Assembly (NCBI GenBank): GCA_017429685.1 | Contig: JAFROL010000004.1 | Coordinates: 60,727-124,726 of the forward strand | DNA: 64,000 bases | Direction of reading: 5' to 3' | DNA from: Bacteroidales bacterium | GTDB taxonomy: Bacteria; Bacteroidota; Bacteroidia; Bacteroidales; P3 | Part shown: in pieces, positions 36,882 to 52,440 of the stretch | Layout of the letters: each line of letters opens with the position of its first letter | Numbering within the stretch: position 1 is the stretch's first letter | The notes under the pieces: generated by a model | Told to the model about the DNA's origin: nothing | Seen by the model: only the letters and a program-made list of their open reading frames with translations | Databases searched by the model: none | Program-made: the position numbers and the translations under genes

Positions 36882-37250
36882 ATGAGGACACAAGGCATCA
36901 CATACGACAAATGCAAGGCTTTTGCCATCGAAGTAATTGCACTTTGCAACAACCTTCGAGAAAAAGGAGAGTATGTTATGTCGAAACAAATATTAAGATC
37001 AGGAACGAGTATTGGTGCCAATTATTGCGAAGCATTAGGTTCCGAAAGCCCACAGGATTTTGTCCACAAGCTGTCAATTTCGCTCAAAGAGGCTAATGAA
37101 ACCTACTTTTGGCTTGATATTCTCCATTCAAGCGGACACATTGACGCCGATCGGTTCAACGGTTTGAAAGAACAACTCGAAGAGATCTACAAGATGATGA
37201 ACTCTGCCTCAATTACAGTAAAAAAGCGCAACAATATACTAACGCAATAA
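36882..37250 (+). CDS. Four-helix-bundle protein (S23/IVP type)
   Basis: 122 residues. It has the family pattern: LRSGTSIGANYCEA, then SKQI before it and KLSISLKEANETYFWLDIL. These proteins are related to those encoded in 23S rRNA intervening sequences; function unknown. The ATG at 36882 lies 9 bp after an 8-bp array. The last codons (CTA ACG CAA) and the stop lie in, or run into, the following array, so the reading frame ends inside a repeat unit. Confidence 0.88.
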   Translation: MRTQGITYDKCKAFAIEVIALCNNLREKGEYVMSKQILRSGTSIGANYCEALGSESPQDFVHKLSISLKEANETYFWLDILHSSGHIDADRFNGLKEQLEEIYKMMNSASITVKKRNNILTQ

Positions 37251-37281
37251 CACAATAACACAATAACGCAATAACGCAATT
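37243..37281 (+). repeat. 8-bp tandem array across the stop codon of the four-helix-bundle gene
   Basis: Units CGCAATAA, CACAATAA, CACAATAA, CGCAATAA, then a partial CGCAATT. The first unit supplies the stop codon of the upstream gene; the last ends 1-2 bases before the zeta-type gene, so the array is its whole leader. Confidence 0.9.
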
Positions 37282-37282
37282 T

Positions 37283-37855
37283 ATGAACAAGAATCTCTAT
37301 ATAATAGCAGGGTGCAATGGGGCCGGCAAGACGACAGCCTCTTACACCATATTGCCTGAGATTCTTGAATGCAAGGAGTTTGTCAACGCCGACGAGATTG
37401 CCCGCGGCCTCTCCCCTTTCAACCCCAACAGCACATCGATCGAGGCGGGCAAGCTGATGTTGAAACGCATCCGCGAACTGCTGGGGCGCGACGAATCGTT
37501 CGCCATCGAGACAACGCTGGCCACGAGGTCGTACATCAACCTGGTAAGGCAGGCGCAAAGCCGAGGATACGCAGTGACTCTGCTCTTCTTCTGGCTGCGC
37601 ACACCCGAACTGGCGCTGCAGCGCATAGCCGAACGCGTGAAAAGCGGCGGACACGACATCCCCACCGCCACCGCACGGCGGCGCTACGTGTCGGGGATAA
37701 CCAATCTGTTCAACCTTTATGTTCCCGAAGTCGACTACTGGATGCTCTACGACAACAGTTCCTCGCCCCGCATCGCCGTGGCTCGCGGAGGACGCCAACT
37801 TGAAACGACCATCTACGACCAGGAAACATTTAATACCATAAAGAACTATGTCTGA
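37283..37855 (+). CDS. Zeta-toxin-family kinase
   Basis: 190 residues. P-loop at the N-terminus (AGCNGAGKTTAS), then NADEIARGLSPFNP and FAIETTLATRSYINLV, the substrate-binding features of zeta/PezT-like kinases that phosphorylate UDP-N-acetylglucosamine. A partner gene overlaps its end by 8 bp. Chromosomal members of this clade in Bacteroidota are common and their toxicity is unproven. Here the putative partner follows the kinase, the reverse of classical epsilon-zeta order. Confidence 0.85.
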   Translation: MNKNLYIIAGCNGAGKTTASYTILPEILECKEFVNADEIARGLSPFNPNSTSIEAGKLMLKRIRELLGRDESFAIETTLATRSYINLVRQAQSRGYAVTLLFFWLRTPELALQRIAERVKSGGHDIPTATARRRYVSGITNLFNLYVPEVDYWMLYDNSSSPRIAVARGGRQLETTIYDQETFNTIKNYV

Positions 37856-38030
37856 CAAAGATGCACAACTGCTGACCGAAAAGATACAGTACGGACTGGC
37901 CCTTGCCGAGCGCCGTATGTTGGAAGAAAAAGCCCTGCACGGACAAGACATCGTCGTCTGCGACAACGACGGCACCATCGAGCGCATCCCCGCAAGCGAA
38001 GCAATAAAAAAAATACCCTCCGTGCAATAA
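37848..38030 (+). CDS. Small partner protein of the zeta-type kinase
   Basis: 60 residues beginning MSDKDAQLLTEKIQYGLALA: an N-terminal amphipathic helix with ALAERRMLEEKALHG, then a short beta segment DIVVCDNDGTIERIPA. The start overlaps the kinase gene by 8 bp (ATGTCTGA), indicating coupling. I infer an antitoxin or regulatory subunit from position and size; no domain is recognised. Confidence 0.7.
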   Translation: MSDKDAQLLTEKIQYGLALAERRMLEEKALHGQDIVVCDNDGTIERIPASEAIKKIPSVQ

Positions 38031-38079
38031 TCGCCCAACAACCACGTTAAATAAATGCAAAATGCATTAGCAAATCAAA

Positions 38080-38167
38080 CACATTCACACATTAACGCAT
38101 TAACACAATAACACATTAACGCACTAACACAATAACCCATTAACGCATTAACGCAATTACGCACTCA
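38080..38167 (+). repeat. 8-bp tandem array, eleven units
   Basis: Eleven consecutive in-register units of C[ACG]CA[AC/T]TAA type, the longest such array in the window, ending 6 bp before tRNA-Arg. Each unit differs by one or two bases, so the array is old or recombines with others. Confidence 0.93.
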
Positions 38168-38173
38168 AAAACT

Positions 38174-38245
38174 GCCTCCTTAGTTCAACGGATAGAACGG
38201 AAGTTTCCTAAACTTTAAATGAGGGTTCGATTCCCCCAGGGGGTA
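38174..38245 (+). tRNA. tRNA-Arg (anticodon CCT)
   Basis: Acceptor GCCTCCT pairs with AGGGGGT (two G-U pairs). The D-arm is GTTCAACGGATAGAAC. The anticodon stem is GAAGT/ACTTT around TTCCTAA with anticodon CCT, and the T-loop is TTCGATT. CCA is not encoded. One mismatch falls in the T-stem. The AT-rich defence island begins about 200 bp downstream, but no duplicated tRNA end or integrase was seen. Confidence 0.88.
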
Positions 38246-38253
38246 CAAAAAAA

Positions 38254-38278
38254 ACACCGCCACCGCGGTGTTTTTTTT
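38254..38278 (+). terminator. Terminator after tRNA-Arg
   Basis: ACACCGC / GCGGTGT stem with a 4-base loop, followed by eight T. Confidence 0.9.
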
Positions 38279-38380
38279 CTAAAACGAAATCTTATGTATT
38301 CGATTTTAATATTGTTGCATTTGCACTATACACTCTATAATACTGATATTCATTCATTTTGAACGAACGCAACGATATAT

Positions 38381-38411
38381 TTTGTCAAATAAAAAATAAT
38401 TCGTATTTTTG
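38381..38411 (+). promoter_or_regulatory. Canonical promoter of the six-gene defence operon
   Basis: TTTG (38381-38384), exactly 19 bp, TATTTTTG (38404-38411), 31 bp before the first ATG. No other TAnnTTTG element was seen ahead of the following five genes. Confidence 0.75.
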
Positions 38412-38442
38412 CATTTGCGTGTAATATAAACAAGCCATCTCA

Positions 38443-39522
38443 ATGGACGGATTTAAAAATATCAAAATCAACAGATTCAGAGGGATCAATCATTTAGAGA
38501 TTGACGATTTCTCACGTGTAAACGTCTTTCTTGGTCAAAACAGTTCCGGTAAGAGTTCTGTGCTTGAATGTATCCTCCTGCTTATGGGTATGTCGAACCC
38601 CGACCTACCCCAAGCCATTAATGCAATTCGGTCACGTAGTTTCAGCAATTTTGCAGACTTAGGATACCTGTTTCACAACTACGACCTGAAAATGAAGCCT
38701 GATTTAGCCGCTGAATTATTCGATGAAACCAAGCGCCATCTCACATTAGAAATGACCTATATGTTCGATGAGAAATCACAGGTCAGCGAACAAAATGGTC
38801 ATATTCCAACCTCAGAAACCAAGACATTTCTAAATACACTAAAGATGGCCTTCGACATAGAATCCGGCCAGAATAAAAAAAACTATGAATGCAGCTTAAC
38901 TATCAATCCGCAAGGAATGATTTCAAACAAGAGATTGGCAGAAGGCTATCTTGAAAAGAATAGTGTAGCATTCATATCGTCGGATTTGGCGGCAGGCAAT
39001 CCCGCCAATGACTTGGTTGAACTGGCAAAACGAAAAAGAAAAGACATTGTAACAGAACGGCTCCAATATTTCGACAGCCGAATAACAACATTGGAAATAC
39101 TAAACAACGTTGCTTACATCGGATTGGACGGCATCGACCAACTGCTAACAGTCAATATGCAAGGTGATGGTCTGCAACGATACTTAAACATCGTTGCAGC
39201 GTCAGCCAACCCAGCGAACAACATTCTTTTGATTGACGAAATTGAGAACGGCCTTCATTATTCTGCTTATAAAAAACTCTGGGAAGCTATATTTGCACTT
39301 GCAGTAGGAACCAACAAACAGATCTTTGTCACCACCCATAGCAAAGAGACAATTCAAAAACTCAACCTGATGTTGACAGAGCATCAGGAATACCAGCAAG
39401 AAATGCGCTTATACACAATTGCGAATACGTTGAAAAAAGGACATCAGGCATATAAGTACACCTACGACGGTCTGTCTGGTGCTTGCGAAAATGATGTAGA
39501 ACTAAGGGGGAGGGTGTTGTAA
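38443..39522 (+). CDS. AAA/ABC-type ATPase (OLD/AriA-like)
   Basis: 359 residues. Begins with a RecF/OLD-type strand, then Walker A GQNSSGKSS (31-39). Walker B is LLIDEIENGLH with Asp265/Glu266, followed by the switch His in VTTHSKE. It has a compact ABC-ATPase head without a long coiled coil and no nuclease domain of its own. The TOPRIM-like partner begins one base before its stop is complete (TAATG). A separate ATPase plus TOPRIM gene pair is the architecture of PARIS (AriA/AriB) anti-phage systems and, in fused form, of OLD nucleases. AT-rich relative to the chromosome. Confidence 0.85.
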   Translation: MDGFKNIKINRFRGINHLEIDDFSRVNVFLGQNSSGKSSVLECILLLMGMSNPDLPQAINAIRSRSFSNFADLGYLFHNYDLKMKPDLAAELFDETKRHLTLEMTYMFDEKSQVSEQNGHIPTSETKTFLNTLKMAFDIESGQNKKNYECSLTINPQGMISNKRLAEGYLEKNSVAFISSDLAAGNPANDLVELAKRKRKDIVTERLQYFDSRITTLEILNNVAYIGLDGIDQLLTVNMQGDGLQRYLNIVAASANPANNILLIDEIENGLHYSAYKKLWEAIFALAVGTNKQIFVTTHSKETIQKLNLMLTEHQEYQQEMRLYTIANTLKKGHQAYKYTYDGLSGACENDVELRGRVL

Positions 39523-40151
39523 TGAATAGATTCCAAATAATAGTAGAAGGTACGGCCGACAAGAAGTTCTTTGAGGACTACTATCGCCACTTGTTTCACG
39601 AGAATGCGCCAGAAGGAAGCATTACCCTTCCCATAAAGGATGACAAAACCGGTGGTTACCAGAAACTGTTCAGCGAAAACGGGATAAACACTCTTAAAGA
39701 AGGTATGGACTATGGCGCGACAAATCTCGTCATTTTCGATGCCGATGACGATATTGAGGCTCGCCGCAAAGAGCTGCTGTCCATTCGAGATAACTATGGA
39801 GTCGATTTTGAACTCTTCCTCCTACCCAATAATCAAGATGCAGGCTCATCGGAAGACCTCTTAGAGCATATCATCAACCCTAACAACCAACCCATCTTCG
39901 AATGCTGGCAGCACTATGAGGACGAACTCGTGCAGCAGGAAATCCCAGGAAGGACACCGCCACCTCTCACCACTCCCGCCAAGAAAACCAAGATATATGG
40001 ATACCTTGAGGCATTACTGGAGCCGAAACAGAAAGACCTCATCAAAGAACGTAACCGCAACTACGAGAATACCCAGCACTGGAATCTGGATGCTGAATAT
40101 TTGGAGCCGTTGAAACAGTTCATTTTGCAATGTTTCAATTTTTATAAATGA
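39522..40151 (+). CDS. TOPRIM-like DUF3226 protein
   Basis: 209 residues. N-terminal IIVEGTADKKFF (Glu9) and then LVIFDADDD (Asp73, Asp75) form the TOPRIM metal-binding set seen in DUF3226/DUF4435 and OLD nucleases. PIFECWQHYED and a basic C-terminus follow. Probably a nuclease activated or restrained by the ATPase encoded just upstream. Assignment to DUF3226 and not DUF4435 is by recall of motif style. Confidence 0.8.
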   Translation: MNRFQIIVEGTADKKFFEDYYRHLFHENAPEGSITLPIKDDKTGGYQKLFSENGINTLKEGMDYGATNLVIFDADDDIEARRKELLSIRDNYGVDFELFLLPNNQDAGSSEDLLEHIINPNNQPIFECWQHYEDELVQQEIPGRTPPPLTTPAKKTKIYGYLEALLEPKQKDLIKERNRNYENTQHWNLDAEYLEPLKQFILQCFNFYK

Positions 40152-40159
40152 TTTAGAAA

Positions 40160-41233
40160 ATGCTATACGGCGTTGACATATTTTGTGGTGCGGGAGGCCT
40201 CAGCTTGGGTGCTGAAATGGCCGGTATTCAAATTGCATTTGCTGTAGAGAAAGACATAAATGCTGCGGCAACATATAGGTACAACCATAGAAATATACCC
40301 ATAATCTGTGACGATATTCACAATGTGGATCCTCTTGCTCATATCCCTCACATAAATAACGATGACCAACTGATTGTATTTGGAGGTCCACCTTGTCAAG
40401 GCTTTTCGCTGTCTAACACGATGACTCGCAATATGCAGAACCCCAACAATAGCTTATTTGAGGAGTTTGTTAGGTTTGTGTCTGCCTTACAGCCAGGATG
40501 GTTTCTATTTGAGAATGTTGAGGGTTTCTTGAGGTTTGAAAATGGACAACTCCGAGACAAAGTAAAAAAATGTTTTGAAGACTTAGGCTATACAGTTAAC
40601 GATACGCTACTTACCGCTTCAAACTATGGTGTTCCTCAACATAGAAGCCGTTTCATTATGGTGGGTAATCGGAATGGTATATTGTTCCAATTCCCAGCCC
40701 CCATCGCCAAAGTCTATACCGTTGATGATGCAATAAGTGATTTGCCGGAGCTTGACAATGGTCAACAAGAAGATACTCTACCCTATAGAATACCTTTATC
40801 AGAAGCCAGCGAGTATGCTAAACTCATGCGACATGGATCGCGAAAAGCTAAACAAAATTACGTATCACGCAATGCCGATTATGTTATTGAGCGGTACAAA
40901 TATATTAAACAAGGGCAGAACTGGCAAGCCATTCCGGAAGATTTAATGAAAAACTACAAGGATAGGAGGCAGTGTCACAGCGGAATATACAAGAGACTTG
41001 AGGCCAATAAACCATCAGTGGTAATATCGAATTATCGCAAAAACATGCTCATTCACCCATTTCAAGATAGAGGTCTTTCTGTGCGTGAGGCAGCTCGTCT
41101 TCAAAGTTTCCCGGACAATTTCATCTTTAAGGGAAGTTTAATGCATATTCAGCAGCAAATAGGCAATGCGGTTCCGCCTATGTTAGGTAACGCAATTTTT
41201 CAAAAAATACAGAATTATGTCAACCCCATTTAA
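40160..41233 (+). CDS. DNA (cytosine-5-)-methyltransferase
   Basis: 357 residues with the ordered C5-methylase motifs: I DIFCGAGGLSLGAEM, IV GGPPCQGFS with catalytic Cys79, VI FENVEGFL, VIII QHRSRFIMVG, IX with SVREAARLQSFPD and X QQIGNAVPP. The target-recognition region is short (about 230-290), so specificity cannot be read. It begins 8 bp after the TOPRIM gene and overlaps the kinase-like gene by 17 bp. No cognate restriction endonuclease of the classical type is adjacent. CATG sites begin within its 3' third. Confidence 0.95.
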   Translation: MLYGVDIFCGAGGLSLGAEMAGIQIAFAVEKDINAAATYRYNHRNIPIICDDIHNVDPLAHIPHINNDDQLIVFGGPPCQGFSLSNTMTRNMQNPNNSLFEEFVRFVSALQPGWFLFENVEGFLRFENGQLRDKVKKCFEDLGYTVNDTLLTASNYGVPQHRSRFIMVGNRNGILFQFPAPIAKVYTVDDAISDLPELDNGQQEDTLPYRIPLSEASEYAKLMRHGSRKAKQNYVSRNADYVIERYKYIKQGQNWQAIPEDLMKNYKDRRQCHSGIYKRLEANKPSVVISNYRKNMLIHPFQDRGLSVREAARLQSFPDNFIFKGSLMHIQQQIGNAVPPMLGNAIFQKIQNYVNPI

Positions 41234-43346
41234 ATTAAAATGGAATTTTGATGTTAGTACATTTCGTCTTTTAGGGCGAGAATTGATAACCGATCGAATT
41301 ACAGCATTGTTCGAGCTGGTAAAAAACTGCTATGATGCAAATGCAAATATAACAACCCTACTTTTCAACGATACAGACACTCTGACAAATAATAGTTATA
41401 TTACCATTAAGGATGATGGAATTGGCATGTCATTGAATGATATTCGATATAAATGGATGGTTGTTGGAACTAATAGTAAACGTAAGGAAAAAACTTCTCC
41501 TGCTCCATATAATAGAACTGTCGTCGGCGAAAAAGGAGTTGGTCGGTTTGCTGTAGAAAAACTTGGATCAAAAGTCACAATTGAGACTACCCAAGAAGGA
41601 ACTTCTAGAAAGATTATACTAGAACTGGATTGGACCAGTTATGAAACACTTTCAAACACCCAGAATAATTATGCTGGTCGAAAATCCACATACTTTACTG
41701 ATGTCGAAAATAACTGCTGGATTTCTCCATGCTCCCGAGAAGAGCATGGCACAACTATAAAGATTTTCTTCAACAGGGTCGACCAGCTCTGGTCAGAAAA
41801 TGATATTGATAGAGCATACTCAGAATTGTCCAAGTTGGTTTCTCCTATTTACAAACCCGCATATCCATTCAATATCGTAATTAGCAGCAATAACTTTAGC
41901 AAATACCAGAATACAGATGTCATCAATAATTTTGCAATCGACACTAAACATCATTATGTGTTAAATTGTGTCAAGGACGGTGATCAGCTGGTTCAACAAC
42001 AACTGTTTTTTGATTCAGAATCTGGTCAGGTAATTACACGTAACACTGCCATATTCAGTTTTGGCCCCGTCTCAATGGACTTCTATTATCTTGACAAAGC
42101 CGATATTCGAAAGTACAAAACCGCATATAAAGGAAATAGAATTGATGGCATCATCATCTATAGGGATGGTATTATCACAACTCCATTTGCTGAAACCGAG
42201 GAAAATACAGACAAGAAAAGAGATATATTGGGAATCGACAAAAGACGTTATTCCGGCTTCTTTGATAAAATAAGCTCAAATAACCTTGTCGGCTTTTTGA
42301 ATATCACAAAAGAAGGAAATCCCCAAATAAAAGATGCGACAAACCGTCAAGACTTTATTGATTGCACAGAATATCGAGAGTTAAAGGCTTTTATCATAGA
42401 CCAAATTGAGGTTATTGAACGGTATTTATCTTATTGGAAAAAAAAGGATTCCGAGGCTTCTATCAACAAACTTCAAATTGCGAACAGCCAACTTTCTCGT
42501 ATTTCAGACACTCTTAATGAGATTTATGACGATGTTTCGCCGAAAGTTCGTACTCAGTTAAAAAAGATAGACCGGCGAACGAAAGCCGTACAGCGCGATA
42601 TTACTAAAGGAATACGTCATGTCGAGCAATTAAAACAAGAGTCTGAGCGAAAGGAGGATTTGTTTCTTAGCTTATTATCCTTACAGGATTATGCTGCCGA
42701 ACTTTCTCATATGGTAAAAACGACAATAGGGAACATAAAATCCATGGCTGAATTTTTCAAAACGGACTTCCCTAATCCCGATTATGACGATATATTTAAA
42801 GACTATGCAACCTCTATTTATAATGAGATGGAGAAGCTTAGTATCGGTGTGAAATTCATGCTTAGCTATGCGACATCAGGAAGTGATTTCGAAACATTTG
42901 AAGTTTTTTCATTGATTAAATACTTGTTTGAAAGAATATACAAAGATCGTTTTGATAGGGCAGGAATTCATACAATTCTGGAGTATTCACAAGAGTTAAA
43001 GATCACTCATAATAAAAAGTTTTTTGAGGATATCTTTGAAAATCTGATTTCGAACTCTGTAAAAGCGTTGAAGAACACACCTGACAAAGTAATAAAATGC
43101 ACGGGTACCGTTGCCGAAGACAAAATGACTATTCGGTTCTCGGATAACGGGTGCGGAATACCACCAAGCGACTGGGAGCGAATATTTGAAATTTTCAAAA
43201 CCACAACACAAAATGACGGTGGTGCAGGAATCGGCCTTTTTACTGTAAGGAAAAGAATAGAAGCTTTACAGGGAGAAATAAAGGTTGTTGAACCGGAATA
43301 TACTCCTGGAGCCACTTTTTTGATTACATTACCCTTTAAACATTAA
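41217..43346 (+). CDS. Two-GHKL protein: MutL/Hsp90-like N-terminus plus histidine-kinase C-terminus
   Basis: 709 residues. The N-terminal ATPase (about 15-200) has ELVKNCYDA (Glu33-Asp40), DDGIGMS (66-72) and GEKGVGRFA (104-112), as in MutL, Hsp90 and MORC-like proteins of restriction loci. A middle domain and a long coiled coil (about 420-490) follow. The C-terminus is a histidine-kinase module with phospho-acceptor candidate His498 in AELSHMVKTT, N-box FENLISNSVKAL (607-618), DNGCGI (643-648) and GGAGIGLFTVRKR (668-680). No membrane segment, so it is a cytosolic sensor. The receiver-domain gene begins 4 bp downstream. Confidence 0.88.
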   Translation: MSTPFKLKWNFDVSTFRLLGRELITDRITALFELVKNCYDANANITTLLFNDTDTLTNNSYITIKDDGIGMSLNDIRYKWMVVGTNSKRKEKTSPAPYNRTVVGEKGVGRFAVEKLGSKVTIETTQEGTSRKIILELDWTSYETLSNTQNNYAGRKSTYFTDVENNCWISPCSREEHGTTIKIFFNRVDQLWSENDIDRAYSELSKLVSPIYKPAYPFNIVISSNNFSKYQNTDVINNFAIDTKHHYVLNCVKDGDQLVQQQLFFDSESGQVITRNTAIFSFGPVSMDFYYLDKADIRKYKTAYKGNRIDGIIIYRDGIITTPFAETEENTDKKRDILGIDKRRYSGFFDKISSNNLVGFLNITKEGNPQIKDATNRQDFIDCTEYRELKAFIIDQIEVIERYLSYWKKKDSEASINKLQIANSQLSRISDTLNEIYDDVSPKVRTQLKKIDRRTKAVQRDITKGIRHVEQLKQESERKEDLFLSLLSLQDYAAELSHMVKTTIGNIKSMAEFFKTDFPNPDYDDIFKDYATSIYNEMEKLSIGVKFMLSYATSGSDFETFEVFSLIKYLFERIYKDRFDRAGIHTILEYSQELKITHNKKFFEDIFENLISNSVKALKNTPDKVIKCTGTVAEDKMTIRFSDNGCGIPPSDWERIFEIFKTTTQNDGGAGIGLFTVRKRIEALQGEIKVVEPEYTPGATFLITLPFKH

Positions 43347-43350
43347 TTTT

Positions 43351-43941
43351 ATGAAATCTAAAACAAAAATTGTCGTTATAGACGACGAAATTAAAGAGAA
43401 TCATCCCATTATAATTAAACTAAGGCAACATTTTGAAACAGTTGTGCCCTATTCTATCGCAGCTAAAGCCATCTCTGATATTAAACAACATCTTGGAGAA
43501 AAGACCATATTGATTTTGGATTTGAAGTTATCCGGTGGAGAAACTGGCTATACCGCATTGAAAGACCTCAGAGAACTTTCGTATCAGATACCCGTAATAA
43601 TCTGGACTGCTTTAGATGAGAGGAATACCGAATCATTTCAATTGATAAACCTGAAGTCTTATGCAATACGAGACAAAGTGTCTTCTTTAGACGAGATTGT
43701 TAGGATTGTTCAACAAGCAGACGCTGACATTGAATATGGACTTTCCAATGCATTGGAGAAATGGATATTGGCACAACCTGGAAACCGTGATGAACCGTTT
43801 GTGATTTCAACGGGCGGAAAGATCATTTCATTAAATGATATGCTGGACGAGGTGAGGCGCGACTCTCCCCGAGGGAGGTCATTTACTCAGGATTTAGTTA
43901 ATTTGACTATTGAATTAATGAAAAAAGACACAAATGAATAA
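43351..43941 (+). CDS. Receiver-domain protein, partner of the kinase
   Basis: 196 residues. A complete REC domain (about 5-120): acidic pocket Asp11/Asp12, phospho-acceptor Asp57 in ILDLKLSGGETG, Thr86 in IIWTALDE and Lys109. The C-terminal 75 residues (about 125-196) have no DNA-binding helix-turn-helix that I can see; they include KIISLNDMLDEVRRDSPRGRSF. Hence it is probably a phosphorelay intermediate or effector switch and not a transcription factor. It overlaps the next gene by 8 bp. Confidence 0.87.
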   Translation: MKSKTKIVVIDDEIKENHPIIIKLRQHFETVVPYSIAAKAISDIKQHLGEKTILILDLKLSGGETGYTALKDLRELSYQIPVIIWTALDERNTESFQLINLKSYAIRDKVSSLDEIVRIVQQADADIEYGLSNALEKWILAQPGNRDEPFVISTGGKIISLNDMLDEVRRDSPRGRSFTQDLVNLTIELMKKDTNE

Positions 43942-44536
43942 TCCTGTATATATTGCATTTGATAATGAGGATTCTTCTCTTGGACATTTTTTTCAGTCAT
44001 GTCATGATAAGATAAGAGAAGAATCTGTGAGCAATGGCCATGACTATTTAGCACTTCCATCTATACAGCTAAGTAAAGATGTTATAAATCAAATTACAGG
44101 AAATGCTGACGAATATGTTTTTTCGGCTTTTTCTCATGGCACACCTAGTACCCTAAAAAGTGGCGAAATCACATATATAGAATGTAATGATAATGTAAAG
44201 AATTTTTATAATTCTGTGTTTTACACGTTTGCATGCTATACTGCAATCGGTATTGGGAAGGAATTTGAAGAGTCTTATGTAATTGGGTATTTCGGATATA
44301 AAGACGAAGCTTGGGTTGTCCCTGCATATGAAGATGTGTTTGTAGATTGTGCAACCAGTGGGCTTGTTTCTTTTTTAAGAGGGAAAACATTGAAAGAATC
44401 TGAGCATGATTTGATTGAAGCATATGACAGTTGTTTAAAACAAGCAAGACTTAACCCAATATATTCATTCCTTTTGAAGAACAAGCAAGCTTTATTTACA
44501 ATAATAAACATTAAAGACAAAACAATCGACACATAA
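43934..44536 (+). CDS. Candidate caspase-fold (C25/CHAT-like) protein
   Basis: 200 residues, not matched to a named family. Two hydrophobic strands end in putative catalytic residues: YVFSAFSHGT (His68) and VFYTFACYTAIG (Cys101). The order (strand-His-Gly, then strand-Ala-Cys) and the spacing of 33 residues fit peptidase C25 and CHAT/caspase-like proteases. A strand pair VIGYFGYKDEAWVVP follows at the place of the next core strand. I infer a protease effector of the adjoining two-component pair; catalysis is unproven. Six CATG sites lie in this gene. Confidence 0.6.
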   Translation: MNNPVYIAFDNEDSSLGHFFQSCHDKIREESVSNGHDYLALPSIQLSKDVINQITGNADEYVFSAFSHGTPSTLKSGEITYIECNDNVKNFYNSVFYTFACYTAIGIGKEFEESYVIGYFGYKDEAWVVPAYEDVFVDCATSGLVSFLRGKTLKESEHDLIEAYDSCLKQARLNPIYSFLLKNKQALFTIINIKDKTIDT

Positions 44537-44591
44537 CTACATTACAATATAGTTAATTATGTTTATTATCTCGAACTAATACAATTACACA

Positions 44592-46049
44592 ATGACCAAA
44601 ATCGAACAATTTCGTTTTTTTATGGAAAAATGTACTGATTTGTCGAAGAAAACACGACAAAATTACATGGATCATAAAAGAATAAATACTTGTTTACAAA
44701 CATTGTTTCCTGAAAAAAAAGGCTTCTCTCTGTTCGATATCAATAGTGCAAAGGAGCTGGAACAAATTGTTATTGAACTAAATAAATTACCGCTTTATAT
44801 TGACTTTAACAAAAAGGGCAACAATCAATATTCGGCAATAATAAATACATATTTACATTTTCTCTACTCATTAAATCTATCTGATTCGACCAAAACAATT
44901 AGATTCAAAAAAACAAGCACCATTATCAATTCTGGCGACACAATTCATCTCACCGCCCTGCGGACAAAACCGTTTATGTTATTAGCGGGAATTTCCGGGA
45001 CGGGAAAGAGCCGTATCGTGAGGGAGATGGCAAAGGCTTGCTGGAAGGAGGGTGACCCCGAATTTGGGAAGAACCACCCGAAGAATTTCTGTATGGTACA
45101 GGTGAAGCCCAACTGGCACGACAGTAGCGAGCTGATAGGCTATGTGTCGCGTCTGAACGGTGAGAAGTTCGTGGTTGGACCGTTCCTGCGCTTCCTGGCG
45201 GCAGCCATCAAGGACCCCGACACGCCTTACTTCCTCTGCCTCGACGAAATGAACCTCGCACCTGTGGAGCAGTACTTTGCCGAATACCTGTCGGTCATCG
45301 AAAGCCGCAAGCTCAATGATAGCGGAATAATCGAAACCGACCCCATCATCGAATATGAGGATACAGATGCCTATCGTAATCTTATCGACCAACTATTTGA
45401 TACTCCCGATGAGCGTGATGAATATAAATCTGCTGCAGGAGAGAAAAGACTCACTATCCCGCAGAACTTCTTCGTGATTGGGACAGTAAATATGGACGAG
45501 ACGACATTCTCGTTCAGCCGCAAGGTGCTGGACCGCGCTATGACCATCGAGATGAACGAGGTGGACCTGCACAGCGGCCTGGAGAAAGGCGCCGGTAACG
45601 ATATCGGCTATATAGGCAACAGCATCATCGGCGATGCCGCCGAAGGCTGCGACGTGTACGATGATAACAAAGAACTGTGCGACCAAGTGCTGGACTACTT
45701 GGAGCAGGTGAACGCCATATTGGAGGGCACCCCCTTCAAGATAGCCTACCGCACAAGAAACGAATTCCTGATGTATGCCGTCAACCGCAAGAAATTAGAC
45801 GAGAAGTCGCAGCTGTGGCAAAGCCTCGACGAGATGACCTCGATGAAAATCCTCTCCCGCATCGAAGGCGACGAAGAACGTACCAAACGCGTACTCGACA
45901 GTCTCAAAGTCCTGGCAGACGAGCAGATTGTCGCTTCCATTCCGCCCGTCGAAGATGGCAAGTCAACCACCAAAAGCATTTCTGCAACCAAAATAAAAGA
46001 GATGATAGAGAAACTCCAAGCCACAGGCTTCACCAGCTACTGGACATAA
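44592..46049 (+). CDS. McrB-like AAA+ NTPase
   Basis: 485 residues. The N-terminal region (about 1-112) is AT-rich and contains YSAIINTYLHFLYSL, similar to N-terminal SAM/DNA-binding domains of restriction proteins. The AAA+ core has Walker A GISGTGKS (133-140), Walker B FLCLDEMNLAP and IGTVNMDETT in place of the McrB NTADRS signature. Downstream sits a McrC/DUF2357-type nuclease, so this is a McrBC-like modification-dependent restriction motor. Base composition and codon use change sharply near 44930 and CATG disappears, suggesting a chimeric gene. Confidence 0.87.
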   Translation: MTKIEQFRFFMEKCTDLSKKTRQNYMDHKRINTCLQTLFPEKKGFSLFDINSAKELEQIVIELNKLPLYIDFNKKGNNQYSAIINTYLHFLYSLNLSDSTKTIRFKKTSTIINSGDTIHLTALRTKPFMLLAGISGTGKSRIVREMAKACWKEGDPEFGKNHPKNFCMVQVKPNWHDSSELIGYVSRLNGEKFVVGPFLRFLAAAIKDPDTPYFLCLDEMNLAPVEQYFAEYLSVIESRKLNDSGIIETDPIIEYEDTDAYRNLIDQLFDTPDERDEYKSAAGEKRLTIPQNFFVIGTVNMDETTFSFSRKVLDRAMTIEMNEVDLHSGLEKGAGNDIGYIGNSIIGDAAEGCDVYDDNKELCDQVLDYLEQVNAILEGTPFKIAYRTRNEFLMYAVNRKKLDEKSQLWQSLDEMTSMKILSRIEGDEERTKRVLDSLKVLADEQIVASIPPVEDGKSTTKSISATKIKEMIEKLQATGFTSYWT

Positions 46050-46087
46050 TATCCAAAACTTTTCATACGTTATCCAACAAACAAACT

Positions 46088-47914
46088 ATGATGACCAGTC
46101 AGGGAATAAAAGATTTGTTGCTATACGGCGAAAGCATTCATCTGGAATGCAAAGAGTGTAGCGTGGACATCCCAAAATCAGTATGGGAAACTTATTCGTC
46201 GTTTGCAAACACATACGGTGGCACCATTCTCCTTGGGGTGCACGAGGATGTCAAAGAGCCTGACGTGAAAAAGAGGTTCACCATAGCCGGCGTATCAGAC
46301 ACAGCAAGAGTAATCGGTAATTTCTGGAATACTATCAACGGCGACAAGACTAATGTCAACATACTGAAAGACGAAAACGTATATTCGGTTAATGTTGACG
46401 GCAAGGAGATTGTCGTGATTGACATACCGCAAGCCGATTATCGGCAACGCCCTGTTTACATCAACGGAAATCCGCTAAAAGGCACATTCAAAAGAACCTA
46501 TGAGGGTGACTATCATTGCATAGAGGCCGAGGTGCGTGCTATGCTTCGCGACGCAAACGAACAGGGATGCGACGGAATGCTCATAGAGGACTATACTATG
46601 GACGACGTCGATCTCGCATCGCTGCACGCCTATCGCAACGAGTTTGCCATCCGGAACCAAGTACACACATTCAACCAACTTGACGACAAGGAATTTCTGA
46701 AGAGCCTTGGAGGTTATACAGTCAACCGAAAACAGAAACAAGAGGGTCTGACTTTGGCAGGTCTGCTTATGTTTGGAAAAGGATTGTCAATCCGAGAACG
46801 CCTTGACAATATCAGGATGGACTATATCGACAAAACCAATCTTGCCGATGGTCAGCGATGGAGCGATCGCATAACCTACGATGGCACTTGGGAGAACAAT
46901 CTTTACAACTTCTTTCATAAAGTTGTCGGAAAACTGACGGCTGATCTCCGCAAACCTTTTGTATTGGATGGGATTGCGCGCAACGATGACTCGCCCGTCT
47001 TCCGCGCCGTTCGCGAAGCAGTGACTAATATGATTATCCACGCCGATTATATGATAACTGGCGTCTTGCGTATAGAGAAACGAGAGAATCTCTTTTACTT
47101 CTCCAATCCCGGTAGCCTCCGACTTCCTGTAGAAAGAATTTACGAAGGAAACCATACCGCTGCCCGTAATCCAAGATTGCAGGATATGTTCCGTATGATT
47201 GGCTATGGTGACAATATCGGCAGCGGATTCCCTACAATACTGGATGCCTGCAGGCAAGAACAGTGGCGTAAACCAGACATAAAAGAAATTCCTGATCTGA
47301 GAACGGTCGACTTGAAAATCTGGATGGTATCCCTGATGCCCGAAGAGATCATAGCCAAGCTCCAAAATACTTATGGCAAATCATTCGAACATCTGAACGC
47401 CATCGAAAAAAGAGTGTTGGCAACAGCTATGCTTGAAGATGAAATTGACAACGGAACAATCCAGACATTGCTTGAACAAAACTCATTAGAGACAGGGCAT
47501 TTGCTTTCAAATCTGGTTGAACGACAGTTCTTGGTATCGGATGGCAAAGGCCGATGGACAATGTACCAAGTGAATAAAAATTTCATAGACAGCACTGCAC
47601 AAGATACAAAACTAAAAGACAACAATATACAGAATACTGTACAAGAAACTGTACAAGAAACTGTACAAGAAACTGCACAAGAAACTGTACAAGAAAAGTC
47701 GCTAAGAATTATTCACCAAGAGAAACTTATTCTTGCTTATTGCAGAGAGCCTAGGACTATCAAAGAAATTGCTTCTTTTTTAAAAGTTAAAAGCATTTGG
47801 TGGCTTCGCAAAACGTATATTAATCCTCTTCTTGGTGATAAACTATGGCAAACTATACCTGAGTCACCGAGAAACCGTAATCAGAAATACACCTCAATTC
47901 CTCCTAAGGAGTAA
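46088..47914 (+). CDS. AlbA_2 (Schlafen-like) ATP-binding protein
   Basis: 608 residues from the ATG at 46088; longer upstream frames overlap mcrB and are not used. N-terminal AlbA_2 domain (about 10-130: ESIHLECKEC, FANTYGGTILLGVHED). A GHKL-like C-terminal half contains REAVTNMIIHADY and NPRLQDMFRMIGYGDNIGSGF. A winged-helix region follows, with a (TVQE)5 linker (about 517-536) and a final basic winged-helix-like segment. Such proteins are often transcription regulators or defence accessories. It sits between the McrB-like and McrC-like genes, 6 bp before the latter. Confidence 0.85.
   Translation: MMTSQGIKDLLLYGESIHLECKECSVDIPKSVWETYSSFANTYGGTILLGVHEDVKEPDVKKRFTIAGVSDTARVIGNFWNTINGDKTNVNILKDENVYSVNVDGKEIVVIDIPQADYRQRPVYINGNPLKGTFKRTYEGDYHCIEAEVRAMLRDANEQGCDGMLIEDYTMDDVDLASLHAYRNEFAIRNQVHTFNQLDDKEFLKSLGGYTVNRKQKQEGLTLAGLLMFGKGLSIRERLDNIRMDYIDKTNLADGQRWSDRITYDGTWENNLYNFFHKVVGKLTADLRKPFVLDGIARNDDSPVFRAVREAVTNMIIHADYMITGVLRIEKRENLFYFSNPGSLRLPVERIYEGNHTAARNPRLQDMFRMIGYGDNIGSGFPTILDACRQEQWRKPDIKEIPDLRTVDLKIWMVSLMPEEIIAKLQNTYGKSFEHLNAIEKRVLATAMLEDEIDNGTIQTLLEQNSLETGHLLSNLVERQFLVSDGKGRWTMYQVNKNFIDSTAQDTKLKDNNIQNTVQETVQETVQETAQETVQEKSLRIIHQEKLILAYCREPRTIKEIASFLKVKSIWWLRKTYINPLLGDKLWQTIPESPRNRNQKYTSIPPKE
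47636..47695 (+). repeat. 12-bp in-frame tandem repeat encoding (TVQE)5
   Basis: Five 12-bp units ACTGTACAAGAA (one with GCA for GTA) give a flexible Thr-Val-Gln-Glu linker. Copy-number change keeps the frame. Confidence 0.92.
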
Positions 47915-47920
47915 TCGTTT

Positions 47921-50062
47921 ATGGACCTTCTGCGCATAACACACGACGACTTCACGCTGACAGTGGAGAGCACACAGTTCCAACGGATGTGGAACAAGGG
48001 AGTACGCATCCTCGGTGAGGATAAGCTTACATCATCCTACCATTGGAGCGAAAGTGTGCAGAAAGTAGTACTGATTCAAGATGGTGATGAGCGTGAGATT
48101 GCGCAAGACGACACAACGGCTCCCGCTGTCTTCTTCGAGCATACGGACTACAGTGTGTGGGTGGATTTCACCAATTCCAAGGTAACAGAAGCTGCATTCG
48201 ACAGTCCACGCAAAGATGTCAACGACCGTTTCTCGTGGAAAAAGAGCAAGCAACTGTTAGCCGGATTCCTGAACTATGACAACGAAATCGGTCGCGCCGA
48301 TATGCCAATACGCTACACTGTCGACGGTGTGCAAAAACGCTTCGTCTTCACATACAACGTCATTTCAGCCAAACTGGACTACCACCACGACTGGAAAATT
48401 ATACTCCAAGACATCGAGGCAGAGTATAGAATGCTGTCGCTCGACTACCTGCGGCGCACCTACCACGGCATCAAGGAGGAACAGGGCGAATCGTACGATA
48501 TCATCTGGTGGAATATCTTCGGTGGTTTGCAAGACGACTTTCTCCGCACCTGCCACAACATTATCGACCGGCCACACCACCGACTGAAAGCCTTTGAAAC
48601 CTACAAACGTGCCGACCAGATACGCCACTTCACGTCAAAGCTGGAGCAGCAACTGGCCGAACACCGCAGCGAGGAGCAGAGACTATACCACGTGGAGGAG
48701 CAGCAGAATACCTACAACACCCCAGAGAACCGATTCCTAAAACACGCCCTGCTGACTGTGCAGAAACGCTATGCCACATTGTCCGCTCGAGTGTTGCAGC
48801 AAGAGGAGAGCACCCTCTCGGATTCCAAAAAAGAAGAAATCACTACAACCCGCAACGAACTTACACGTCTGTCACGTCACCCATTCTTCCGCACCGTGGG
48901 CCCATTCGACGGCATAAGGCAGGAGTCACTTGTACTTCAGAAGGACATCCTATATTCCCGACTGTTCCGCATCTTCAACATTCTACAAAAATCCTTCAGC
49001 CTCAACGACGGACTCTACCGTATGGAGACCAAAGACATCGCCACTCTTTATGAAATTTGGTGTTTCATCCAAGTAGAGAAAGTGGTCAAAGAGCTTACCG
49101 GCATCACTCCTGAGCAGCAGAGCCGCACGGAAATGAGCGGTCTTTTTGCCTACAGACTTGGTAAAGGCGAACATTCAAAGATAATATTCAAACAGGATGA
49201 TATTACACTTGCCGAACTGGTCTACAACCCTCGCCACAGCGAACAGGACGACGTCAAAGGCATTGGCAACCTGGAGTCAAAAACGGTGCCGCAGAAGCCA
49301 GACATTGTGCTGCAACTGACTAAGGACGACCTGCAACAAGGGATGAAACTCACATACCTCTTCGATGCAAAATACCGTTTGGAAAAAGATGGCACACAAG
49401 ATGTGCCACCCGACGATGCCATCAACCAGATGCACCGCTACCGAGACGCCATCTATTACAACAAACATCACACTGGCGAAAAGCTGAAGAAAGAGATTAT
49501 CGGAGGATATATTCTCTTCCCAGGCAAAATGGACGACACATCACGCTTCCGTCGCAGCGTCGACGAAGTGAACATCGGTGCCTTCCCTATGCGCCCCGGC
49601 GACAACCAGCACAAACTGCTTTCGGACTTCATCGCTGAGCTGTTGGAAAAACACGCTGTCGAAATAGTGGAGCAAGTAATCCCACAAAAAGGCACCACTC
49701 TCGAAGTGAAGAATCGAGTACTCATAGGCGTAGTAAAAGCCGATAACCCACAATACGAAAACTTCAAAAACAGGACAGCTACGCTGTACTATACCAGCAA
49801 GCACGTATCAAAAGACATCCCTCTCAATGGCATTGACTACTTCGCGCCATATCTTAGCCAAGAAGGCGGATACAAAGACCTGTACATTGTAAAGAATGTA
49901 AGAACAGGTCAAAAGGGCGAGGGTGAAGTGGACGACAACCTCCGCATCATCCTCGAAATCGAATACTCACATTCACTATTTGCCAATTACCATAAGGACT
50001 CCAATATCTCCAATATTCAACCGTTCGATTACACCACTCTTGAAGAAATCAAACTTTCATAA
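47921..50062 (+). CDS. McrC-like nuclease subunit (DUF2357)
   Basis: 713 residues. DUF2357 N-terminal and middle regions lead to a PD-(D/E)xK nuclease core: QKPDIVLQL, then LFDAKYRLE (Asp482, Lys484). A C-terminal domain (about 600-713) follows with a beta-rich EVE/PUA-like look (RVLIGVVKADNPQYENFKNRTATLYYT), a plausible modified-base reader. Together with the McrB-like ATPase two genes upstream it would cut modified or foreign DNA. Confidence 0.85.
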   Translation: MDLLRITHDDFTLTVESTQFQRMWNKGVRILGEDKLTSSYHWSESVQKVVLIQDGDEREIAQDDTTAPAVFFEHTDYSVWVDFTNSKVTEAAFDSPRKDVNDRFSWKKSKQLLAGFLNYDNEIGRADMPIRYTVDGVQKRFVFTYNVISAKLDYHHDWKIILQDIEAEYRMLSLDYLRRTYHGIKEEQGESYDIIWWNIFGGLQDDFLRTCHNIIDRPHHRLKAFETYKRADQIRHFTSKLEQQLAEHRSEEQRLYHVEEQQNTYNTPENRFLKHALLTVQKRYATLSARVLQQEESTLSDSKKEEITTTRNELTRLSRHPFFRTVGPFDGIRQESLVLQKDILYSRLFRIFNILQKSFSLNDGLYRMETKDIATLYEIWCFIQVEKVVKELTGITPEQQSRTEMSGLFAYRLGKGEHSKIIFKQDDITLAELVYNPRHSEQDDVKGIGNLESKTVPQKPDIVLQLTKDDLQQGMKLTYLFDAKYRLEKDGTQDVPPDDAINQMHRYRDAIYYNKHHTGEKLKKEIIGGYILFPGKMDDTSRFRRSVDEVNIGAFPMRPGDNQHKLLSDFIAELLEKHAVEIVEQVIPQKGTTLEVKNRVLIGVVKADNPQYENFKNRTATLYYTSKHVSKDIPLNGIDYFAPYLSQEGGYKDLYIVKNVRTGQKGEGEVDDNLRIILEIEYSHSLFANYHKDSNISNIQPFDYTTLEEIKLS

Positions 50063-50087
50063 AAAAGAACCAACATAACCACTAGGT

Positions 50088-50474
50088 ATGAAACATATTG
50101 AAGTTGTTGCAGCAATTATTCACGATGAGCACGGGCGCGTCTTCGCCACGCAGCGGGGCTATGGCGAATGGAAGGACTACTGGGAGTTTCCCGGCGGGAA
50201 GATCGAGGCGGGAGAGACGGCAGAAGAGGCCTTGCGACGCGAGATTTGGGAGGAGCTGGAGACGCGCATCGCCGTGAAGCACATAGTGGATACGGTGGAA
50301 TGGGACTATCCTCAGTTTCACCTCACTATGCATTGCTACCTATGCCACGTGGAGAGTGGGCATCTGGAATTGAAAGAACACGAGGCCGCAAAGTGGCTCA
50401 GCAAGGATGAGATTGAAAGCGTCAACTGGCTGCCAGCGGATTGGGCGCTGGTGCGGAAGTTAAAGACAATGTAA
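50088..50474 (+). CDS. Nudix hydrolase, MutT-like
   Basis: 128 residues with the complete Nudix box GGKIEAGETAEEALRREIWEEL (about 36-57) and the NTP-pyrophosphohydrolase N-terminus IEVVAAIIHDEHGRVFATQRGYGEWKDYWEFPG typical of 8-oxo-dGTP diphosphatases. It cleanses the nucleotide pool. It begins 25 bp after the McrC-like gene but its GC-rich codon use is that of the chromosome, so it marks the right border of the island. Confidence 0.93.
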   Translation: MKHIEVVAAIIHDEHGRVFATQRGYGEWKDYWEFPGGKIEAGETAEEALRREIWEELETRIAVKHIVDTVEWDYPQFHLTMHCYLCHVESGHLELKEHEAAKWLSKDEIESVNWLPADWALVRKLKTM

Positions 50475-50606
50475 GTCGAAAAACCAATGGAGACCTCCAA
50501 TAATTCATTATTTCGAACACGAATTTCACGAACAACACGAATAATCAACAATAATTGCAAGCGGAACACGAATTATATAGGTCACCCACAGAAATATTAG
50601 TAACCG

Positions 50607-50879
50607 ATGAACACAGAACGCATAACACAGATGGAGCAACGGCTCGATCGGGCGACGGCGGCCGTGGAAGCGCTGGAAGCGGCAATCGAACAATACAAAG
50701 CCACGAGCGACGACCTGGCTGCGCTGGACACCTACCTCGGCAGTCCCGAATGGCACGCCGACCGCGACGACGACGAAGCCGGACGCCTGCCCAAGGGCCT
50801 ACGGCGTGGCGTGCTCAGCGAAGACGCCATCTGGAACCTGCTCGAACGACACCGCGAACTTCAGAAACATATCCAATAA
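50607..50879 (+). CDS. DUF4298 protein
   Basis: 90 residues, helical, beginning MNTERITQMEQRLDRATAAVE and containing DDEAGRLPKGLRRGVLSEDAIWNLLE, the DUF4298 pattern. Function unknown. The next gene begins 4 bp after its stop, so it may be co-transcribed with the solute-binding protein. The 130 bp upstream contain degenerate AACACGAAT repeats. Confidence 0.85.
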   Translation: MNTERITQMEQRLDRATAAVEALEAAIEQYKATSDDLAALDTYLGSPEWHADRDDDEAGRLPKGLRRGVLSEDAIWNLLERHRELQKHIQ

Positions 50880-50883
50880 CCGT

Positions 50884-51714
50884 ATGAGGCACAACAGATT
50901 AAAAATATGGCTATTTATCGTCCTGTTGGCGATAGCGTGGACGACGGCACTGGCGGCCTGCAGCGACAAGAAAGACTCACTCGCCGGAGGACCAACCGTA
51001 GAACGCATCGAACAGCGGGGCAAGCTAATGGTCGGCACCACAGGCGATTACAGACCTCTGTCGTTCCGTGAGCCGGAGACTGGCATCTACTGGGGTTTCG
51101 GCATCGAGCTGGCCGAGGCAATTGCCAAGCGGATGGGCGTGACGGTGGAGTTCGTCCACACCTCGTGGCCCACGCTGACGGCCGACGTGCAGGCCGAGCC
51201 ACAGCTGTTCGATATGGCCATCGGCGGCATCACCATCACCGAGGCACGCTGCGCCACGATGCTGATGAGCGAAGGCTATCTGGCCAACGGCAAGACCATC
51301 CTTTGCCGCACGGAGGACACCGTCCGTTTCTGCTCGCTGGCCGACATCGACCGCCCCGAGGTGCGCGTAATGGTCAACCCCGGCGGCCTCAACGAACAGT
51401 TCGCCCGGCAGCACCTCACCCACGCCACCCTTATCGTCCACCCCAACAACGAGGAAATTCCTTCGCTCATCGCTGAAGGCGAGGCCGACGTAATGATCAC
51501 CGAAATAACCGAGGCGCCCTACTATGTGCAAACCGACCCGCGCTTGGCGGCACCGCTGCTCGCCACCCCATTCACCCACGGCGAAATCGGCGTGCTGATG
51601 CGCAAGGGGCAGGACGACCTGCTGGCCCTCGTCAACAGCATCATCCGCCAGATGAAAGCCGACGGCACCCTCCGCCAGCTGACCGAGAAATACGGATTAG
51701 TATATGCCTACTAA
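50884..51714 (+). CDS. Solute-binding lipoprotein (SBP family 3)
   Basis: 276 residues. Signal peptide with lipobox LAAC (Cys26). The SBP_bac_3 fold shows GKLMVGTTGDYRPLSFRE, IYWGFGIELAEAIAKRMGV and VMITEITEAPYY. Some related periplasmic proteins are cyclohexadienyl dehydratases and not transporters; the absence of permease and ATPase genes beside it leaves that open. The ATG at 50884 is chosen for the signal peptide. Confidence 0.87.
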   Translation: MRHNRLKIWLFIVLLAIAWTTALAACSDKKDSLAGGPTVERIEQRGKLMVGTTGDYRPLSFREPETGIYWGFGIELAEAIAKRMGVTVEFVHTSWPTLTADVQAEPQLFDMAIGGITITEARCATMLMSEGYLANGKTILCRTEDTVRFCSLADIDRPEVRVMVNPGGLNEQFARQHLTHATLIVHPNNEEIPSLIAEGEADVMITEITEAPYYVQTDPRLAAPLLATPFTHGEIGVLMRKGQDDLLALVNSIIRQMKADGTLRQLTEKYGLVYAY

Positions 51715-51792
51715 GTAAATGGTCAAAAACAACCTTCATTCTCTTCAAACAGGAATTACCATAAATTGGCCAGAAATTAACCATAAATATAA

Positions 51793-52440
51793 ATGACCAC
51801 CAAGCATCTAACCATATCACCTATGCGGCACGACGAGATTGGCCTGTGCGCCGAACTGTCGGTGCAGGCATTTGCCGACTACGAATATTTCACCAATTTC
51901 TTCGCCGACCGCGACAAGCGGCTAAGGTTTATGCGTGCGATGATACACAGCGAGTACCGCACCACACGCCATCGCGCGCACTTCCTTGTCGGCCGCAGCG
52001 ACGATATGCCTGTGGCCGTGGCCGACCTCTTTCCGCCCGACTGGCACAAGCCCTCCGACCTGCAATACCTGATGCACGGTTGGTGGCGCGTGCTGCGGCT
52101 GCCCAAGCAGGACATCGTCAACGAATGGCTGGCGATGGACACCCGCGCCGGCCACTACTGTCACACGCTGCTGGGCGGCACCACGTGGTACCTCAGCTCG
52201 CTCACCGTCAGCCCCGAGCACCAAGGCCGTGGCTATGGACGCGAGATGCTGATGGAATGCGTCGTACCCTACATCCGCCAGCACGGCGGCACACGCCTCT
52301 GCTTCTTCACCAACAGCGAGAGCAACCTGGCCTTCTACCGCCACCTCGGCTTCGAAGTCTCTGACTTCCAGGAGCTCGACTGCCGCGGAACGAAGATGGG
52401 CAGCTGGAGCATCGTCTACGAAATACCGCAACAGCAATGA
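51793..52440 (+). CDS. GNAT-family acetyltransferase
   Basis: 215 residues with the acetyl-CoA-binding segment LSSLTVSPEHQGRGYGREMLMECV (motif A, Q-x-x-G-x-G) and a C-terminal CFFTNSESNLAFYRHLGFEV. The acceptor substrate is unknown. The stop overlaps the start of vsr by 4 bp. Confidence 0.9.
   Translation: MTTKHLTISPMRHDEIGLCAELSVQAFADYEYFTNFFADRDKRLRFMRAMIHSEYRTTRHRAHFLVGRSDDMPVAVADLFPPDWHKPSDLQYLMHGWWRVLRLPKQDIVNEWLAMDTRAGHYCHTLLGGTTWYLSSLTVSPEHQGRGYGREMLMECVVPYIRQHGGTRLCFFTNSESNLAFYRHLGFEVSDFQELDCRGTKMGSWSIVYEIPQQQ

Follow-up and report, generated by a model that had tools for sequence, protein, structure and literature searches.

The association of a C5 cytosine DNA methylase with a double-GHKL kinase and a receiver was described computationally in 2021 (Bellieny-Rabelo et al., PMC8011034). 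According to its main text, these HEF_HK/Response_reg_2 systems comprise a cytosolic kinase with HATPase_c_3, DHp and HATPase_c domains and an adjacent receiver, with C5 methylase genes as neighbors and Vsr and HNH genes nearby. Earlier work linked paraMORC GHKL ATPases to C5 methylases, Vsr and HNH in restriction systems, and its text proposes that GHKL modules in restriction operons loop DNA (Iyer, Abhiman and Aravind 2008, PMC2292703); in addition, VcSduA, in which a Shedu nuclease carries a GHKL ATPase domain, is described as protecting against phages (PMC12137116). Here, we analyze a six-gene operon in 64,000 nucleotides of Bacteroidales bacterium (hereafter the window; assembly GCA_017429685.1, contig JAFROL010000004.1, positions 60,727–124,726 of the forward strand). 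Genes for a C5 methylase, a double-GHKL kinase and a receiver are followed in this operon by a sixth gene, whose 200-residue product, P6, we place as a candidate gingipain-like cysteine peptidase of clan CD, the peptidase clan of animal caspases. The genome of the window is referred to as G000 and the loci of relatives by L-numbers.

The kinase in the window has the same domain make-up as those of the published systems, and the window proteins match neither of the two defining Pfam domains. The kinase does not match HEF_HK (PF19191) at E values up to 1, and no protein of G000 does at 0.001; the receiver does not match Response_reg_2 (PF19192) and is instead matched by plain PF00072 (6.7e-6). 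Among 42 genomes searched at E ≤ 0.001, HEF_HK is matched in four and Response_reg_2 in three, G000 in neither case. With the BbrUII/HgiDII restriction enzymes (NF050001), only the N-terminal GHKL part is shared (residues 10–146, 1.4e-18, 66.8 bits against a cut-off of 550), the rest of the window kinase being a histidine kinase. By comparison, paraMORC1 carries an extra C-terminal extension, and the terms receiver, two-component and protease are absent from the text of the paper describing it (PMC2292703). An earlier note on this DNA had cited the same paper for GHKL ATPases at restriction loci. The note had further stated that it knew of no described system with this combination. The methylase–kinase–receiver linkage is already published, whereas the words caspase, protease, peptidase and gingipain each occur 0 times in the main text of PMC8011034, and no published gene set with a peptidase arm was found in the open-access literature, preprints and most subscription papers lying outside that scope. 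What looks new is therefore confined to the peptidase arm and the present lineage of kinase and receiver, and there is a strong case for P6 as a new output class of methylase-linked kinase/receiver systems.

The window operon also differs from other defense systems. The methylase is shared with Type II restriction–modification, but no nuclease family is found among the six genes, and the McrBC-like genes nearby lie outside them. Detocs is a two-component phage defense in which a kinase signals through a receiver to a cell-damaging effector, which is fused to a receiver and degrades ATP. The window system would share the principle of kinase, receiver and effector; unlike in Detocs, its effector would be a separate peptidase candidate and its sensor a GHKL ATPase, and it includes a methylase. 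The PADLOC 2023 scan, which may lack a Detocs model, listed no such match for genes 4–6.

We consider it somewhat better than an even chance (roughly 0.55) that methylase, GHKL–histidine kinase, receiver and P6 constitute a four-gene, horizontally mobile signaling cassette, in which a phosphorelay gates the protease and methylation marks self. If true, DNA self-marking, GHKL clamp ATPases, phosphorelay and clan CD proteolysis would be united in one bacterial operon. The published methylase-linked kinase/receiver pairs are without an output, and the window offers one with an identifiable catalytic dyad; the role of methylase-adjacent double-GHKL kinases thus becomes testable by four point mutants.

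Linkage of P6 to the kinase and receiver

Fourteen P6 homologues were collected, from the window, L007, L008, L009 (a Stenotrophomonas plasmid), L091, L092, L094, L101–L104, L106, L158 and L159. All 14 genes lie directly behind a receiver gene, which itself follows the kinase coding sequence. Searching 237 genomes of the order with the P6 profile returned seven places in six genomes, each with the order kinase–receiver–P6 (7/7), and a search of 393 genomes with the window receiver returned five places outside G000, all followed by P6 (5/5). In the 13 loci measured, the receiver gene runs 8 bases into the P6 gene ten times and 14 bases twice, and a gap of 11 bases separates the two genes once. 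The earlier note had named a lack of co-occurrence in other genomes as refuting its reading; kinase, receiver and protease candidate occur together in 13 further loci.

A C5 methylase gene lies directly upstream of the trio in 12 of the 14 loci, as called by PF00145 for the window and nine others and by 67–68% identity to the window methylase for L007 and L008. L102, a copy cut short at the start of its contig or decayed, is one of the two loci without a methylase call. In L104 (7060–11849), no methylase gene is seen beside the kinase, in which a sacsin-type domain (SACS 2e-15) replaces the MORC-type GHKL module; the receiver and P6 are retained. The kinases of L007 and L008, from Bacteroidaceae and Prevotella metagenome-assembled genomes, are 71–72% identical to that of the window, and both loci have the order ATPase–methylase–kinase–receiver–P6, with the TOPRIM gene absent. 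The recurrence of the order methylase–kinase–receiver–P6 in other genomes exceeds chance.

The same parts could also form a selfish addiction module, in which loss or dilution of the methylase leaves host DNA unmethylated, the kinase fires and P6 kills the cell. Methylase and putative killer share one overlapping operon, their occurrence is patchy (6/237 and 5/393 genomes of the order), and the island is missing from a same-genus genome. Restriction systems are known to serve both defense and addiction. Neither purpose is favored by the HNH, Vsr and metallo-beta-lactamase outputs of relatives; we regard addiction as a rather unlikely account of the locus.

No P6 or kinase relative was found on viral contigs with patterns suited to close relatives only. 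In tblastn searches of plasmids, window P6 had no match, and the L009 protein matched two records, both Stenotrophomonas. A single-sequence P6 search of 395 genomes of the phylum matched six genomes (E ≤ 0.01); five of these matches are weak fragments (E 0.004–0.009), which leaves that in G000 as the one genuine hit.

The L158 locus adjoins genes that look relaxase-like by eye. In L007 (13883–16376), the P6 locus is directly followed by genes for a restriction enzyme of the EcoRII type and a further C5 methylase. In L091 (5413–7913), the kinase is split into two open reading frames (ORFs) of 561 and 265 residues, with receiver and P6 intact. L021 (4796–6452), from another genus, is a decayed copy with a 197-residue fragment 54% identical to the N-terminal end of the kinase, adjoining a C5 methylase 58% identical to that of the window.

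P6 as a candidate clan CD peptidase

The P6 homologues are highly divergent, with pairwise identities of 10–89% (median 19%), and only H68, G69, C101 and G121 are invariant among the 200 positions. The putative catalytic His-Gly and Cys occur in this order in all 14. The three most divergent of the first eleven members, those of L009, L092 and L094, are joined to the core eight with a probability of 88% in profile comparison. The profile of these eleven aligns with that of 18 Peptidase_C25 (gingipain) domains over 159 columns with a probability of 51% (E 1.5e-4), placing H68 on the invariant His and C101 on the invariant Cys of C25 (18/18 domains). This score was reached by none of 100 column shuffles, and the reversed profile also fell short. 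The probability stayed between 25% and 58% when any of five subsets was dropped and rose to 72% (E 3.5e-5) with 14 rows, while five unrelated control families all gave less than 1%. Within clan CD, the same method joins C14 to CHAT at 91%, CHAT to C25 at 67% and C14 to C25 at 1.5%. By these yardsticks, the P6–C25 link is about as strong as that between CHAT and C25, and weaker than a family match. Unlike C25 proteins, P6 is small, lies in a cytosolic-looking operon and stays under every Pfam threshold.

The earlier note had proposed a caspase-fold protease. The His/Cys pattern of a clan CD-type protein agrees with this proposal, whereas the nearest detectable peptidase relative is C25 rather than C14 or CHAT: comparison of P6 with either of the latter was no better than with shuffles, the score being reached by 1/100 in each case.

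Kinase, receiver and exchanged outputs

The identities given in the earlier note to the methylase, the double-GHKL kinase and the receiver with a phosphorylatable Asp are supported. The methylase contains the motifs PPCQ, which holds C79, and ENV. The kinase comprises an N-terminal ATPase of the MORC/MutL/HgiDII type (HATPase_c_3 at residues 29–155, about 41301–41681), a DHp region carrying H498 (42708–42710), and a C-terminal histidine-kinase ATPase (HATPase_c at residues 601–708, about 43017–43340). The N-terminal module retains its ATP-site residues, and the C-terminal kinase domain has intact ATP-binding motifs. Among proteins of solved structure, sensor kinases are matched by the kinase core, H498 aligning with the His of the SrrB H-box, while the N-terminal half gives weak matches only, the best being PMS1 (0.0047) and MORC2 (0.084).

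The receiver contains D11/D12, D57, T86 and K109 and a C-terminal tail of about 70 residues. D57 is invariant in 11/11 homologues, and the receiver profile (A6) matches many receivers of solved structure, the best at 2.4e-9. Phosphate transfer from the kinase to the receiver is plausible. Two-component pairs are common and catalysis by P6 is predicted from sequence, so that the locus might be an ordinary cytosolic two-component regulator located in a defense island by chance, with P6 as a non-catalytic partner. However, domain scans detect no DNA-binding output domain on the receiver, the linkage of kinase, receiver and P6 is strict, the His and Cys of P6 are invariant, and relatives swap the output for nuclease families; such a regulator is very unlikely.

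Double-GHKL kinases are common in Bacteroidota, being found at 45 places in 38 of 395 genomes (13-row profile A3, E ≤ 1e-60). Together with L007–L012 and five loci found through the receiver, 56 neighborhoods were examined, and two found through P6 bring these to 58. Upstream genes on the same strand within 250 bases match PF00145 in 27/49 cases, and downstream genes match PF00072 in 22/55 (E ≤ 0.01; as the L091 kinase is split, its receiver was counted rather than the second kinase half). A looser receiver-residue motif occurs in 46/55 downstream genes, compared with 21/433 other ORFs. The second downstream genes (n = 44, with L091 left out) include six Vsr, five HNH, two HNH_2 and three Lactamase_B genes, and in seven loci the receiver tail is HEPN-like with an RxxxxH motif, by motif reading rather than Pfam match. 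In a tree of 54 kinases, rooted at the midpoint only and with L009 and others on long branches, the 11 full-length P6-type and seven HEPN-type kinases form one group (95/99), within which neither type is a single clade, indicating that outputs were exchanged during evolution. The five HNH kinases form one group, as do the three metallo-beta-lactamase kinases.

Among these loci, a metallo-beta-lactamase-fold gene directly follows the receiver in L025, L027 and L058. In L011, L022, L026, L059, L061–L065, L068–L070 and others, the receiver carries an additional C-terminal domain, fused to it and bearing a TPxCD-like motif, which has no Pfam match in the members scanned singly; a Vsr gene then follows in L061–L063.

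These features suggest the following working model for the four-gene cassette. The methylase would mark the DNA of the cell, and the N-terminal GHKL module may close on DNA in an ATP-dependent manner, sense unmarked or otherwise abnormal DNA, and signal its state to the C-terminal kinase core. Phosphate would then pass from H498 to D57, and the receiver would activate P6, probably via its conserved C-terminal tail. Activated P6 may cut host or phage proteins and thereby halt infection, usually at the expense of the cell. What the sequences show is the arrangement and linkage of the genes, their domains, the conserved catalytic residues and the swapping of outputs; DNA sensing, phosphotransfer, proteolysis and defense are inferred.

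To judge from the relatives, the cassette may belong to a modular alarm system, with a protease in the place that restriction systems usually give to a nuclease. We tentatively extend the cassette model to a restriction–modification-like system in which unmarked DNA would be answered by protein cutting through a phosphorelay-released protease instead of a nuclease. This system would be part of a modular immunity superfamily built on a kinase–receiver core, with exchangeable GHKL sensors of the MORC or sacsin type and exchangeable outputs, whether peptidase, HNH, Vsr, metallo-beta-lactamase or HEPN-like. This broader reading is possible, and we hold it with less confidence than doubt.

Several observations weigh against the cassette model. 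P6 reaches no Pfam, PADLOC or NCBIfam model; when 11 members were scanned with hmmscan, C25 was matched at E 0.12 at best, by a single member; and the P6 profile gave five weak matches to solved structures, none of them a peptidase. Only four of the 45 kinase places in the phylum sample carry P6 (G000, L091, L092 and L094), and gene linkage alone ties the methylation state to signaling. Moreover, HisKA kinases are described as using the acidic residue directly after the phospho-His as their general base (PMC7005713), and this residue is replaced by M, I or A in 9/9 P6-type kinases with an alignable His (M499 in the window); for five further P6 loci, no His could be assigned to that alignment column. 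By comparison, the main text on the published systems describes this acid as conserved (PMC8011034). Given this loss, the kinase may have low activity, rely on a different base, or serve chiefly as a phosphatase.

The Thr/Asn at position +4 of the HisKA phosphatase motif, whose role is described together with that of the +1 acid in PMC7005713, is kept in 7/9 of the alignable kinases. Loss of the acid with retention of the +4 residue raises an inverted logic, in which the receiver is phosphorylated by default, for example by other donors, and silences P6 until the double-GHKL protein, mainly a phosphatase, is triggered, removes the phosphate and so frees P6. The intact C-terminal ATP-binding motifs, which a phosphatase role alone would not need, argue against this version, and we judge it unlikely.

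Operon layout and neighboring genes

The layout described in the earlier note was reproduced on recomputation: all six ORFs are in place (Table 1), the spacings are −1, +8, −17, +4 and −8 bp, and C79 of the methylase, H498, D57, H68 and C101 are each present. The operon follows tRNA-Arg(CCT) (38174–38246) and is AT-rich, with a GC content of 0.33–0.45 for the six genes compared with 0.524 for the whole window. The proposed canonical promoter is less certain. Its motif, which we take to be the Bacteroides promoter consensus, is present, and as it matches four times in the window against 1.14 expected, a number reached by 4/100 shuffles, the site is weak evidence by itself.

Table 1. Features of the operon and its 3' flank in the window
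Feature	Position	Strand	Basis
Promoter-like site TTTG-N19-TATTTTTG	38381..38411	+	Motif match to presumed consensus; weak alone
AbiLi/PDC-M38A-like AAA ATPase, accessory	38443..39522	+	AAA_15 8.2e-23; PADLOC AbiLi 4.2e-60, PDC-M38A 4.6e-47
DUF3226/TOPRIM-like protein, accessory	39522..40151	+	DUF3226 1.7e-13; PDC-M38B 2.4e-8
C5 cytosine DNA methylase; C79 at 40394-40396	40160..41233	+	PF00145 3.6e-67
709-residue double-GHKL sensor kinase	41217..43346	+	HATPase_c_3 3.4e-22; HATPase_c 3.2e-26
196-residue receiver protein; D57 at 43519-43521	43351..43941	+	PF00072 6.7e-6, under Pfam cut-off
P6, 200-residue gingipain-like (clan CD) cysteine peptidase candidate	43934..44536	+	Profile comparison with Peptidase_C25
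P6 H68 codon	44135-44137	+	
P6 C101 codon	44234-44236	+	
McrB-like AAA_5 ATPase, neighboring system	44592..46049	+	AAA_5 5.1e-6; PDC-M26A 6.2e-41
McrC-like DUF2357 + PDDEXK_7 nuclease, neighboring system	47921..50062	+	2.9e-40 and 7.6e-35

The first two genes look like an accessory AbiL/PDC-M38-like unit, as judged from their matches to these PADLOC models; the ATPase also matches AAA_21, and its partner reaches only 0.0024 with the AbiLii model. The earlier note had suggested that this pair is a second arm of the system, and a six-gene system with an essential ATPase/TOPRIM arm would fit the tight spacing in the window and the ATPase gene preceding the methylase in L007 and L008. However, an ATPase homologue is present only in the window, L007 and L008 (3/14 P6 loci) and the TOPRIM gene only in the window (1/14), and absence of the ATPase is testable in 8 of the 11 loci lacking it, the upstream side ending at the contig edge in L101, L102 and L103. 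This occurrence places the pair outside the core, and on it we reject the six genes as a single unit; we consider an essential second arm highly improbable.

The McrB-like and McrC-like genes 3' of the operon, overlooked in the earlier note, match PADLOC PDC-M26 and are probably a separate neighboring system; an McrC-like gene occurs in 2/14 P6 loci. In the cassette model, both this pair and the ATPase/TOPRIM pair would be neighboring defense units that travel with some copies. An AlbA_2/RecG-C-like ORF (45677–47914) lies between the two McrBC-like genes, whereas the L008 pair, both 52% identical to those of the window, flanks a RhuM-family gene instead. The GC content of the McrB-like gene is 0.29 in 44592–44940 and 0.52 in the remainder.

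In the same-genus genome G729, tRNA-Arg is followed after about 95 bases by the counterpart of the ORF at 53003 in the window, and tblastn at E 1e-8 detects there none of the ORFs queried from the 36882–52440 part of the window (McrB was not queried). Since G729 has no match to these queried ORFs, the operon sits in a variable block of about 14.7 kb. As for integration repeats, no 12-base word of tRNA-Arg recurs elsewhere in the window. A Vsr mismatch endonuclease gene (52437–53120) of the window is found at the corresponding place in the island-less same-genus genome as well. Between infB and tRNA-Arg, an ORF at 37283–37855 encodes a P-loop near its start (GCNGAGKTT) and appears zeta-toxin-like by eye.

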